Notes under the pieces: model-generated
The model's database searches: none
Seen by the model: the letters and a program-made list of their open reading frames with translations, nothing else
What the model was told of the DNA's origin: nothing
Program-made: the position numbers and the translations under genes
IMG/VR virus record: IMGVR_UViG_3300025085_000215
Coordinates: 1 to 22,235 of that record
DNA from: a virus
DNA length: 22,235 nt
Strand: one strand, 5' to 3'
Shown: positions 18,716 through 21,938 of the stretch, piece by piece
Layout of the letters: every line of letters starts with the position of its first letter
Position numbering within the stretch: position 1 is the first letter of the stretch

Positions 18716-18909
18716 TACACACCTCTCTTTGCAAACACTGGAGCAAACTGATCCCAGATCGCATAGTCGGGGTCTAGCTTTTCTTGCATACTGTCAATGA
18801 CATTGCGCTGATCACGGCCACGCTGAAAGAAACGGCGGCTCTCCGAAAACTCAAAAGTCCAGTCATGGTTTTTAAGTAACTGCTTATATTGTTCTAGGTT
18901 GTTTTCCAT
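18715..18909 (-). CDS. Small unknown early protein
   Basis: A 64-aa charged protein, the first gene after the leftward promoter. It is probably helical (MENNLEQYKQLLKNHDWTFE, then RRFFQRGRDQRNVIDSMQEK and YAIWDQFAPVFAKRG). The RBS is a clear GGGAGATAGG just before the ATG. Being promoter-proximal, it is likely expressed early. No domain, membrane span or Cys motif. It ends by overlapping the next gene's ATG by one base. Confidence 0.6.
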   Translation of the reverse strand: MENNLEQYKQLLKNHDWTFEFSESRRFFQRGRDQRNVIDSMQEKLDPDYAIWDQFAPVFAKRGV

Positions 18910-18924
18910 ACCTATCTCCCTGTT

Positions 18925-18943
18925 GTTATAAATCTGTTTTAAC
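18925..18943. promoter_or_regulatory. Operator-like imperfect palindrome in the divergent control region
   Basis: GTTATAAATCTGTTTTAAC pairs at six of eight arm positions, with GTTA/TAAC outer arms as in the perfect palindrome at 13598-13614. Its left half (GTTATAAAT) recurs inverted at 18995-19003. It lies over the leftward -10, next to the Cro-like gene. Confidence 0.4.
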
Positions 18944-18964
18944 TTATTGTAGTTGACCTTGCAA
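18936..18964 (-). promoter_or_regulatory. Leftward early promoter
   Basis: Read on the - strand, TTGCAA (18964-18959) and TAAAAC (18941-18936) are separated by 17 bases. It would start the recombination/lysis operon about 20 bases before its first RBS. The -10 lies inside the operator-like palindrome 18925-18943. Match to sigma70 consensus is moderate at both boxes. Confidence 0.45.
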
Positions 18965-18981
18965 CAAAAAAATTATATTAG
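18953..18981 (+). promoter_or_regulatory. Rightward early promoter for the HTH/replication genes
   Basis: TTGACC (18953-18958) is 17 bases from TATTAG (18976-18981); TATATT at 18974 is a better -10 but only 15 bases away. It would transcribe 19018-21810. It overlaps the leftward -35 region, so the two promoters would compete or be controlled together. Confidence 0.4.
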
Positions 18982-18994
18982 ATTTATATTGTTT

Positions 18995-19003
18995 ATTTAT
19001 AAC
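18995..19003. promoter_or_regulatory. Inverted copy of the operator half-site
   Basis: ATTTATAAC is the exact reverse complement of GTTATAAAT at 18925-18933. It lies about 15 bases before the HTH-gene ATG and downstream of the rightward -10, where a bound repressor would block its own gene (autoregulation, inferred). Confidence 0.35.
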
Positions 19004-19017
19004 GTCAGGATAATAAA

Positions 19018-19218
19018 ATGAAATTGGCAGAATGGCTAGTAACCAAAGGCATCCGGCAGGCTGATCTGTCACGGATGCTAGATGTGACGCAACCGACAGT
19101 GCATAACTGGGTTAATCGGAAGTCACCACCATCAGCAAAACAGATGATGAAGCTGTATCAGATGTCCAAGGGCAAGGTTGGTCTAAAGGACTGGTGCGAA
19201 GAATTTGAGGTGCAGTGA
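19018..19218 (+). CDS. Cro/XRE-like helix-turn-helix repressor
   Basis: A 66-aa DNA-binding protein the size of lambda Cro. The helix-turn-helix is plain: WLVTKGIRQADLSRMLDVTQ (helix, turn) then PTVHNWVNRKSPPSAKQMMK (recognition helix and next helix), residues about 6-45. The end is acidic (WCEEFEVQ). SD AGGA lies seven bases before the ATG. It sits alone at the head of the rightward operon, beside a divergent leftward promoter with palindromic sites, as Cro does. No CI-like partner, integrase or LexA-type peptidase is present here. It probably represses both early promoters and perhaps the 13.6-kb promoter. Confidence 0.75.
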   Translation: MKLAEWLVTKGIRQADLSRMLDVTQPTVHNWVNRKSPPSAKQMMKLYQMSKGKVGLKDWCEEFEVQ

Positions 19219-19815: not shown

Positions 19816-20041
19816 TATGGTTAATCAACCGCCGCACTATGTGAAGGGTTCAATTGAAACGATTGACTACATGGTTGACGTGCTTGGTGTTGACGGTGCG
19901 ATACAATACTGCCACGGAAACGTAATCAAATACACTGGCCAGCGGTTGTTTGCCAAGGGCAATCCGGTGCAGGACGCTAAGAAGGCGGTCTGGTATTTAA
20001 ACAAGATGATTGAGTTAATGGAGATGTCTGAAAGTGAATAG
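19805..20041 (+). CDS. DUF3310 protein
   Basis: A 78-aa protein read from ATG 19805; ATG 19817 has a better-placed GAAGGG and may be the true start. The DUF3310 signature is complete: MVNQPPHYVKGSIETIDYM, then IQYCHGNVIKYTGQRLFAKG, then QDAKKAVWYLNKMIELM. The family is common near replication genes in dsDNA phages; some members are annotated as nucleotide kinases on weak grounds, but no P-loop is present here. It overlaps both neighbours. It probably helps DNA metabolism in an unknown way. Confidence 0.8.
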   Translation: MKGDMVNQPPHYVKGSIETIDYMVDVLGVDGAIQYCHGNVIKYTGQRLFAKGNPVQDAKKAVWYLNKMIELMEMSESE

Positions 20042-20459
20042 GCCGATGTACGAAACGCAGGATGACTTGGACGGCGAGATCGCAATGATGAAGCGGTTAT
20101 GCTCTAAGAAGGGTCATCACTTTCGTAAGTTACCGATATCGTACAGGCTAGATTTTGTGGTGCATGAGGCTGGCAGTAACAAGCCATTGTGTTTTGTTGA
20201 GTGCCGGAAGCGTAGCACGACAATAAACAAGTACCCAACGTACATGATCAGCTTGAACAAAGTGCTGTTCGCCAAAAAACTTGCAACGGCCTGTATGGTG
20301 AAGGCGTATTTACTTGTTGAGTTTACAGACGGTCTGGGTATTCTGGACTTTAACGAGCCGTTCGATGTACGCGTTGGCGGCCATAACAATAGGGGTGATT
20401 GGCAGGATATTGAACTGGTCGCCTACTTTGACATAAAAAAAATGAGGAGAGTAACATGA
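20034..20459 (+). CDS. Possible PD-(D/E)XK-fold protein, function unknown
   Basis: A 141-aa protein starting with GTG 20034 (GGAGA nine bases upstream) or ATG 20046. The centre shows Asp40 in SYRLDFVVHE and Glu56-Cys-Arg58-Lys59 in LCFVECRKRSTT, spaced like the D...ExK core of restriction-type nucleases, followed by a helix (LNKVLFAKKLATACMVKAYL) and a strand (LLVEFTDGLGILDF). ExR in place of ExK makes activity doubtful. It overlaps the DUF3310 gene and ends by ATGA with the initiator gene. It may be a degenerate nuclease or a structural DNA-binding fold. Confidence 0.6.
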   Translation: MNRPMYETQDDLDGEIAMMKRLCSKKGHHFRKLPISYRLDFVVHEAGSNKPLCFVECRKRSTTINKYPTYMISLNKVLFAKKLATACMVKAYLLVEFTDGLGILDFNEPFDVRVGGHNNRGDWQDIELVAYFDIKKMRRVT

Positions 20460-21283
20460 GTGTAAAGGCAATAGGATGGGCGTTTGAGCAGAAGGTGGAC
20501 GATCCATTGGCGAAGCTGGTACTGTTAGCACTAGCTGATCACTACAACGAATCCACTGGGGATGCGTGGCCGTCAATAGATAGGCTGGTAGCAATCACTG
20601 AAGGTAGCCGGAGTACGGTTATCAGAAAGCTCAAGAAACTGGAGCAGGTTGGCTTCATCAGCAGAGAGAAGCGTTACAACAAAACAGATGTCTACCGGAT
20701 ACATTTTACTGGTGTCACACAGACACCTCAAAGCAATTCTAATGGTGTCACTCTGACACCTCAAACAGAATCTACTGGTGTCACACAGACACCTCTAGGG
20801 GTGTCACACAGACACACTAACACTTACTTAACCGTTAACAATAATAATATAAGTAAAAAGACAACTAAGCAAAAGGTATCCGAGTGGATGCCAACACCGG
20901 ATGACATCGCCTATGCCAAAGAGCTTGGGCTAGATGCTGATGAGGTGTTAACAGATATTCGTCTATGGGATGATAAGAACGGCAATAAAGCGTCTTACAG
21001 CAATGTCACTGCTTTTTGGCAGTCTTGGTGCAGACGTGACGCTAAAGGCCGTCCTGCGCGCTCTCAGGGCGGTTCTAGCCGTGTTTCTAGTGAGAGAAGC
21101 CTGTCACCAGCACAGGAAGGCTACATTGATGGCTTGTCTAGGAAATATTATGCGAAGTATGCACATGAGGGATATGATTTTGAGGACATTAAAGGATATC
21201 TGACTGAGTACGTTACTAAGCGTTACGATTTTGAGCAATGGTGTAGCATGGGTCACGGCTTACCACACATGACGGAGTTATGA
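20456..21283 (+). CDS. O-like replication initiator (winged HTH + DnaT-like C-terminus)
   Basis: A 275-aa replication protein. Residues about 5-85 form a winged helix-turn-helix of the HTH_36 type (AKLVLLALADHYNESTGDAW, IDRLVAITEGSRSTVIRKLK, LEQVGFISREKRYN). Residues 86-120 are GVTQTP/GVTLTP repeats encoded by the DNA iterons. A Lys/Asn-rich linker follows, then a DnaT-like block WMPTPDDIAYAKELGLDADE, IRLWDDKNG and VTAFWQSWCRRD (about 144-198). The C-terminal third is Ser-rich, then helical. The first domain should bind the iterons, and the DnaT-like part could recruit host helicase. Strong GAGGAGAG RBS. The terminase gene starts within its stop. Confidence 0.8.
   Translation: MSVKAIGWAFEQKVDDPLAKLVLLALADHYNESTGDAWPSIDRLVAITEGSRSTVIRKLKKLEQVGFISREKRYNKTDVYRIHFTGVTQTPQSNSNGVTLTPQTESTGVTQTPLGVSHRHTNTYLTVNNNNISKKTTKQKVSEWMPTPDDIAYAKELGLDADEVLTDIRLWDDKNGNKASYSNVTAFWQSWCRRDAKGRPARSQGGSSRVSSERSLSPAQEGYIDGLSRKYYAKYAHEGYDFEDIKGYLTEYVTKRYDFEQWCSMGHGLPHMTEL
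20711..20727. repeat. Origin iteron 1
   Basis: GGTGTCACACAGACACC, a palindrome with 6-bp arms GGTGTC/GACACC. Lies in the initiator gene in reading frame GVTQTP. First of four near-identical copies, start-to-start distances 33, 33 and 23 bases. Confidence 0.8.
20744..20760. repeat. Origin iteron 2
   Basis: GGTGTCACTCTGACACC: same arms as iteron 1 with centre ACTCT instead of ACACA. Arms conserved while the centre varies, as expected of a dimer-binding site. Confidence 0.8.
20777..20793. repeat. Origin iteron 3
   Basis: Identical to iteron 1 (GGTGTCACACAGACACC), 33 bases downstream of iteron 2 and in the same protein frame. Confidence 0.8.
20800..20816. repeat. Origin iteron 4 (frame-shifted copy)
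   Basis: GGTGTCACACAGACACA: 16 of 17 bases match iteron 1, but it starts 23 bases after iteron 3, so it is read in another frame and encodes GVSHRHT. It directly borders the AT-rich stretch. Confidence 0.75.
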
Positions 21284-21810
21284 TGACTGACAAGAAATTA
21301 CCACAGCATTATCAGAAGAAGCGGCTCATCGGTAAGGACAAGAAAACCGAGGATGAGTTTCTCAAGCGGTTGATGGATCGTCCAGCGAAACATGTCGGCA
21401 AGGATGTTGACATGCCTAGCTTTAACACGTTCTGGCGATGGTTGCAGAAGGACGCAGACCTTAGAGAGCGTTATAGACAGGTCATGGAAGGCAAGGCGGC
21501 TCTCGCCGATGCCAAGATACACGACATACAAGAACAGGTCAGGGATGTTGTCAGGGATGCAAAGGACGGACTGATCACAAAGGACGTGGCTTATGTAGCG
21601 ATACAAGCGGCAAGGCTAGATATCGACACTGAGAAGTGGCGTGCGGCTAAGTATTATCCGAGAATGTATGGCACAGATCAGAAGGTTGAGGTCGAGCATA
21701 AACACAGCTTGGTGGATGATCTCAAGATCGTATCAGAGCGTGTCGCACAGCGTGAAGCTAGGACGATTGAGGGTACTGTGCAGGACGTTGAGGTTGAGGA
21801 TGATGAGTAG
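21280..21810 (+). CDS. Terminase small subunit (Sf6-like)
   Basis: A 176-aa DNA-recognition subunit of the packaging motor. After a basic start it has an HTH-like segment (FLKRLMDRPAKHVGKDVDMP, NTFWRWLQKDADLRERYRQV), then the long oligomerisation helices MEGKAALADAKIHDIQEQVR and YVAIQAARLDIDTEKWRAAK. The conserved YYPRMYGTDQKVEVEHKHSL, the pattern ahead of the large-subunit-binding tail in Sf6-type small terminases, comes next, and the C-terminus is acidic (VQDVEVEDDE). Length is near the family norm. ATG 21280 overlaps the initiator stop. It should bind the packaging site, possibly in the adjacent 365-base spacer, and pair with a large subunit beyond the window. Confidence 0.8.
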   Translation: MMTDKKLPQHYQKKRLIGKDKKTEDEFLKRLMDRPAKHVGKDVDMPSFNTFWRWLQKDADLRERYRQVMEGKAALADAKIHDIQEQVRDVVRDAKDGLITKDVAYVAIQAARLDIDTEKWRAAKYYPRMYGTDQKVEVEHKHSLVDDLKIVSERVAQREARTIEGTVQDVEVEDDE

Positions 21811-21921: not shown

Positions 21922-21938
21922 TAACACACACTGTGTTA
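21922..21938. promoter_or_regulatory. Perfect 17-bp palindrome in the terminase spacer
   Basis: TAACACACACTGTGTTA has 7-base arms TAACACA/TGTGTTA around CAC, the same 7-3-7 geometry as the palindrome at 13598-13614 though with a different sequence. It may be a protein-binding site for the terminase or a regulator. Confidence 0.4.

Follow-up and report, generated by a model that had tools for sequence, protein, structure and literature searches.

The segment 20711-20866 of the analysed DNA (the window, a linear stretch of 22,235 nt) is best read as a lambda-type replication origin lying inside the gene of its own initiator. We consider this reading, put forward in the preliminary description for an O-like initiator gene, to be highly probable; it is supported by the covariation of the iterons with the winged helix of the protein and by the similar picture that lambda gives in the same scans. 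It is proposed that a dimer of the winged helix binds each of the short palindromic iterons, as suggested by their palindromy and by the exchange of both elements together, and that the bound array would strain the adjoining AT-rich DNA and lead to its melting, which is consistent with the order of the elements and with lambda. The DnaT-like C-terminal half of the protein would then bring in the host replicative helicase. We infer that the origin fires at 20711-20866.

The initiator gene (P0001; 20456-21283, + strand) encodes a protein of 275 amino acids, consisting of a winged helix, a linker encoded by the iteron DNA, a DnaT-like domain, and a helical C-terminus. The N-terminal winged HTH claimed from the sequence was recovered as residues 2-86 (20459-20713, +), with a match to HTH_36 (E 1.8e-12), and is seen also in the structure model and in matches to wHTH proteins of the PDB. 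The PHROG matches are replication initiators, several of them named O-like (phrog_1032, 270, 678, 391); with its HTH_36 winged helix and these matches, the protein belongs to the HTH_36/PHROG O-like phage initiators. The linker (residues 86-135) is predicted to be disordered (pLDDT below 50). The structure model obtained from 32 sequences (pLDDT 67.5) can be relied on for the winged helix and the domain limits only, and a model from seven sequences (pLDDT 56) was too poor for use. The three-helix domain at approximately residues 139-199 (20870-21052, +) is the candidate helicase-recruiting part and is constant across the cassette swaps described below. The claim that the second half is DnaT-like holds in part: the profile match to phage DnaT-like C-termini is moderate (hhalign 87%, E 3.9e-6), and one phage initiator C-terminus used in this comparison passes the Pfam DnaT cut-off, but compared directly with E. 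coli DnaT the domain matches weakly (hhalign 14%). The domain has no Pfam match of its own, and searches against Pfam (including PF17948) and PDB sequences gave nothing convincing; a search of bacterial genomes with it found no relative. The fold search with the model returned winged-helix matches only, and the C-terminal domain was thereby barely probed, so the missing DnaT match in that search carries no meaning. The second helical region of the C-terminus (residues 218-264; 21107-21247, +), predicted by the model, matches no known family.

Within this gene lie four copies of the motif GGTGTCAC-nnn-GACACc, which start at 20711, 20744, 20777, and 20800, and the four 17-bp palindromic iterons with start-to-start distances of 33, 33, and 23 that had been reported are thus confirmed. 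Repeat and motif scans give iteron 1 as GGTGTCACACAGACACC (20711-20727), iteron 2 as GGTGTCACTCTGACACC (20744-20760), iteron 3 again as GGTGTCACACAGACACC (20777-20793), and iteron 4 as GGTGTCACACAGACACA (20800-20816). Perfect 6-bp arms are present in three of the four iterons, and the right arm of iteron 4 is without its final base. No further copy with up to four mismatches was found by the motif scan elsewhere in the window, and none of the other scanning windows, 1101 in total, reaches the repeat density seen at the iterons (45), the values outside the initiator gene being at most 6. A lone perfect palindrome with 6-bp arms, TAACACACACTGTGTTA, lies downstream of terS at 21922-21938 and is unrelated to the iterons. 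Directly 3' of iteron 4 comes the AT-rich stretch, a candidate DNA unwinding element (20817-20866). The low-GC segment expected at this place is therefore present, but with 12 G/C in 50 and not 13; 50-mers with at most 13 G/C make up 0.56% of those in the window. GC skew, analysed for the window and for the complete genome of phage C72C1, follows gene orientation and is for this reason uninformative about the origin, speaking neither for nor against it.

The pairing of the iterons with the winged helix is seen among the relatives of the window. When viral contigs were scanned for the C-terminal domain, 48 loci were obtained, several of which are contigs already contained in another set of relatives; three of them (L002-L004) are identical to the window across the initiator gene. 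In the 37 family sequences used for typing, three types of N-terminal winged helix are paired with three types of iteron: GGTGTCACACAGACACC in type A, to which the window belongs, repeats of the kind TGACACAGctcTGTCAGGGGGT in type B, and 15-bp repeats CCGttgaCGGtaaaa in type C. Between the winged helices of types A and B the relationship is distant (about 43% identity), and that of type C is alignable to neither. Three to four copies of the type A motif are seen exclusively in genes of type A; one or two loose matches in each of four type B genes are due to the resemblance of the half-sites. The lowest-GC 50-mer (10-14 G/C) starts at gene nt 310-397 in all 37 sequences, i.e., where the iteron region ends and ahead of the C-domain. 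The search of relatives for conserved iterons showed that wherever the winged helix is the same, the iterons are kept in every relative examined. A conserved protein with the repeats absent would have spoken against the origin; the opposite was seen, namely a different winged helix joined to a near-identical C-terminus and accompanied by different iterons. Three more distant relatives of the winged helix (L092, L093, and L094; 41-45%) have other C-termini and their own palindromic iterons (CGTCAAATTGACG-like or GTCGCGgagGCGCGAC-like) in the same linker.

Cross-type identity of the C-domain reaches its maximum of 99.2% between L045 (A) and L056 (C), followed by 97.0% between L043 (C) and C72C1 (B), 96.2% between L005 (A) and L013 (B), and 94.9% between L063 (B) and L068 (C). 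DNA alignment of four pairs places the right exchange boundaries at gene nt 396/398, 457/496, 409/355, and 405/406, close to the start of the C-domain codons (396-457 in the numbering of the better-aligned partner, 355-496 over both partners). The left boundary in three pairs coincides with the initiator ATG of one partner (C72C1 +4, L013 +5, L045 0), where the other partner has 217-591 nt of extra DNA. For C72C1 and L043, the flanks are 94-96% identical and the cassettes differ. From these boundaries and the near-identical C-domains and flanks it follows that in at least four pairs the exchange took in winged helix, iterons, and AT-rich stretch together. This is strong evidence, drawn from sequence comparison, that winged helix and iterons work as a pair and are swapped as one cassette. 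The disordered linker may tolerate any peptide that the iterons encode, so that a single specificity cassette could carry both site and reader; the exchange itself is visible in the sequences. A wider proposal is that the first 400 nt (winged helix, iterons, and AT-rich stretch) form an exchangeable plug-in for origin specificity, existing in at least three versions among marine phages and joined to a DnaT-like domain that stays constant; the resulting one-protein replicon would be minimal and would recruit the host helicase without a phage loader; we give this proposal an even chance.

Upstream, a PDDEXK_14 endonuclease-like gene (20034-20459, +; PF24579, E 4.7e-35) overlaps the start of the initiator gene by 4 nt. 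In the comparison of L005 with L013, L005 has about 500 nt extra upstream, and from such alignments the presence of the PDDEXK_14 gene appears to vary with the cassette type. At the counterpart position type C has a 74-aa ORF (L043:2372-2596), and in type B the upstream homology extends right to the ATG; a cassette-specific small gene may therefore travel with the origin. The next gene downstream encodes an Sf6-like terminase small subunit (terS; 21280-21810, +; PF20901, E 2.8e-17). Eight records, including the complete C72C1 genome, were searched for a DnaB_C or DnaC-type ATPase, and none was found; the window itself is a linear fragment outside which some genes may lie. As neither a phage helicase nor a DnaC-type loader came to light, we infer the involvement of the host helicase, which the initiator probably recruits by itself or through a host loader. 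Further upstream, GC content reaches its lowest value in the window at 18966 (7 G/C in 50), outside the initiator gene, in a divergent intergenic region (18909-19018) before a Cro-like gene, and this region is probably a bidirectional promoter/operator region. The Cro-like HTH protein (19018-19218) passes the Pfam YdaS cut-off; no obvious CI-type repressor was seen in the part of the fragment's ORF list that was searched.

At the same linker position, all nine distant HTH_36/O-like initiators that were analysed also have iterons of their own; these initiators come from phage C72C1 and from phages of Pseudanabaena, Roseibium, E. coli, Pseudomonas, Klebsiella, Arthrobacter, Burkholderia, and Bifidobacterium. 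The spacing in these initiators is often 22-23 nt, and the reading frame therefore shifts at each copy. In all 15 loci scanned, it is the initiator gene that contains the locus-wide top repeat window. In Pseudanabaena phage Pam5 (L017), the initiator gene is unannotated; an open frame at 2001-2604 has a wHTH, iterons, and a DnaT-like C-terminus.

The location of the repeats inside a coding sequence raises the question of whether they are a by-product of a selected peptide repeat, TGVTxTP, in the linker. Iterons 1-3 do share one frame and encode near-identical peptides (GVTQTP, of the pattern GVTxTP); iteron 4, however, is read in another frame, as GVSHRH, and its DNA nevertheless equals 16 of the 17 bases of iterons 1 and 3. 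The protein was held fixed and its codons were redrawn according to local usage in 50,000 draws. The observed summed distance between the iterons was 9, compared with a mean of 40.5 and a minimum of 19 in the draws, and no draw approached it; the palindromy had P = 8e-5 in the synonymous redraw. Measured against the relative L006, the iterons have one synonymous change in 30.7 sites; the winged helix has 27 in 56.3 (Fisher p = 7e-6 against the iterons) and the C-domain 45 in 82.3 (Fisher p = 9e-8 against the iterons). The synonymous divergence is accordingly 0.03 for the iterons, compared with 0.48-0.55 for the flanks. In 12 iterons across type A relatives, the arms GGTGTCAC...GACAC are invariant and variation is confined to the 3-nt centre and the last base, with centre changes in both reading frames. 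The pattern of substitutions thus indicates that it is the DNA, not the peptide, which is under selection. Since the same iteron is read in two frames, the peptide explanation is excluded for practical purposes, and the predicted disorder of the linker and the frame-shifting spacing in other phages also oppose it. The AT-richness is a different matter: given the fixed protein it is not significant (P = 0.12, codon redraw) and is explainable by an Asn/Lys-rich linker. The evidential weight of the dip comes from the recurrence of its position across relatives, not from its AT-richness alone.

Exchange of the repeats with the winged helix would be expected as well if the repeats were autoregulatory operators, through which the initiator blocks its own transcription, the origin lying elsewhere. 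Plasmid initiators often use iteron-like operators, which counts in favour of this possibility. The sites, however, are situated approximately 255 nt within the gene and not at a promoter, and the AT-rich stretch follows the iterons in 37 of 37 members, in the order known from functional lambdoid origins (PMC7466680). An operator function in place of the origin is therefore improbable; an operator role of the iterons might exist in addition, as a double role beside the origin. The repeats could also be a pac/cos or TerS-binding site, as they are located just upstream of terS, which starts about 460 nt downstream. When L005 and L013 are compared, nt 457-1770, including the terS region, are 97% identical and the iterons are entirely different, and the downstream flank of C72C1 is 94-95% identical to that of L043 despite the other cassette. 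TerS stays constant across the swap and the site changes with the winged helix, which makes a packaging site very improbable, more so than an operator. The replication origin inside the initiator gene thus remains the preferred reading.

It is known that origins can lie within the genes of O-like initiators, and lambdoid phages are known to exchange replication specificity. What is new here is this family of HTH_36/DnaT-like initiators, its three cassette types, and their sharp exchange boundaries; a literature search, with subscription papers mostly outside its reach, found papers on lambdoid origins and none on this initiator family or on the cassette exchange. The lambda arrangement recurs in uncultured, apparently marine phages with an initiator lacking detectable similarity to lambda O. 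The swaps are near-clean natural experiments: the reader domain moves jointly with its sites and the AT-rich DNA, and the helicase-side domain stays. It follows that origins in unannotated phage contigs might be predicted from the initiator gene alone, and the matched pairs of winged helix and iteron offer material for recognition rules. The family also bears on the question of helicase loading in a phage lacking both P and DnaC.

In functional lambdoid origins the iterons occupy the central part of the initiator gene, and behind them comes an AT-rich tract that is required for unwinding (PMC7466680). The same scans applied to lambda located the iterons at nt 349-433 of the O gene and the GC minimum at 438, which bears out the statement that lambda O shows the same order. 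Both systems have four palindrome-like iterons of 17-18 bp in mid-gene with an AT-rich stretch directly 3', and in both the C-terminal half of the initiator is distinct from the DNA-binding part. The stated difference in sequence also holds: the iterons are unrelated and differently spaced (20/24/23 in lambda, 33/33/23 in the window), and the two proteins have no detectable similarity (BLASTP E 2.8; hhalign 0.2%). The winged helix is Phage_rep_O in lambda O and HTH_36 in the window. Up to E 0.1, the window protein is not matched by PF04492 (Phage_rep_O), which is also absent from the 25 families listed for 32 family members, whereas the lambda O control scores 5.7e-36; on these matches, the initiator is of the HTH_36 type and not a member of Phage_rep_O. 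Lambda has P at the place where the window has terS. The winged-helix fold is shared with the N-terminal domains of plasmid initiators (PDB 4pql and 4pt7; Z 8.5 over 80-88 residues), but this likeness is generic for wHTH, as unrelated wHTH proteins score equally or higher. With E. coli primosomal DnaT (PF17948), the resemblance runs by way of the phage DnaT-like C-termini. The HTH_36/PHROG O-like initiators are similar in their N-terminal domain and in the linker position of the iterons, and differ in iteron sequence, which is particular to each; in those of mEp010, Klebsiella, and Arthrobacter phages, moreover, the iterons are not followed by a local GC minimum. Phage C72C1 (OQ984150; complete, circular, 34.9 kb) shares with the window the neighbourhood of SSB, Sak, a repressor-like gene, initiator, and terS, and likewise has no DnaB_C or DnaC-type match; its initiator is 39% identical overall to that of the window and differs in carrying a type B winged helix together with type B iterons.
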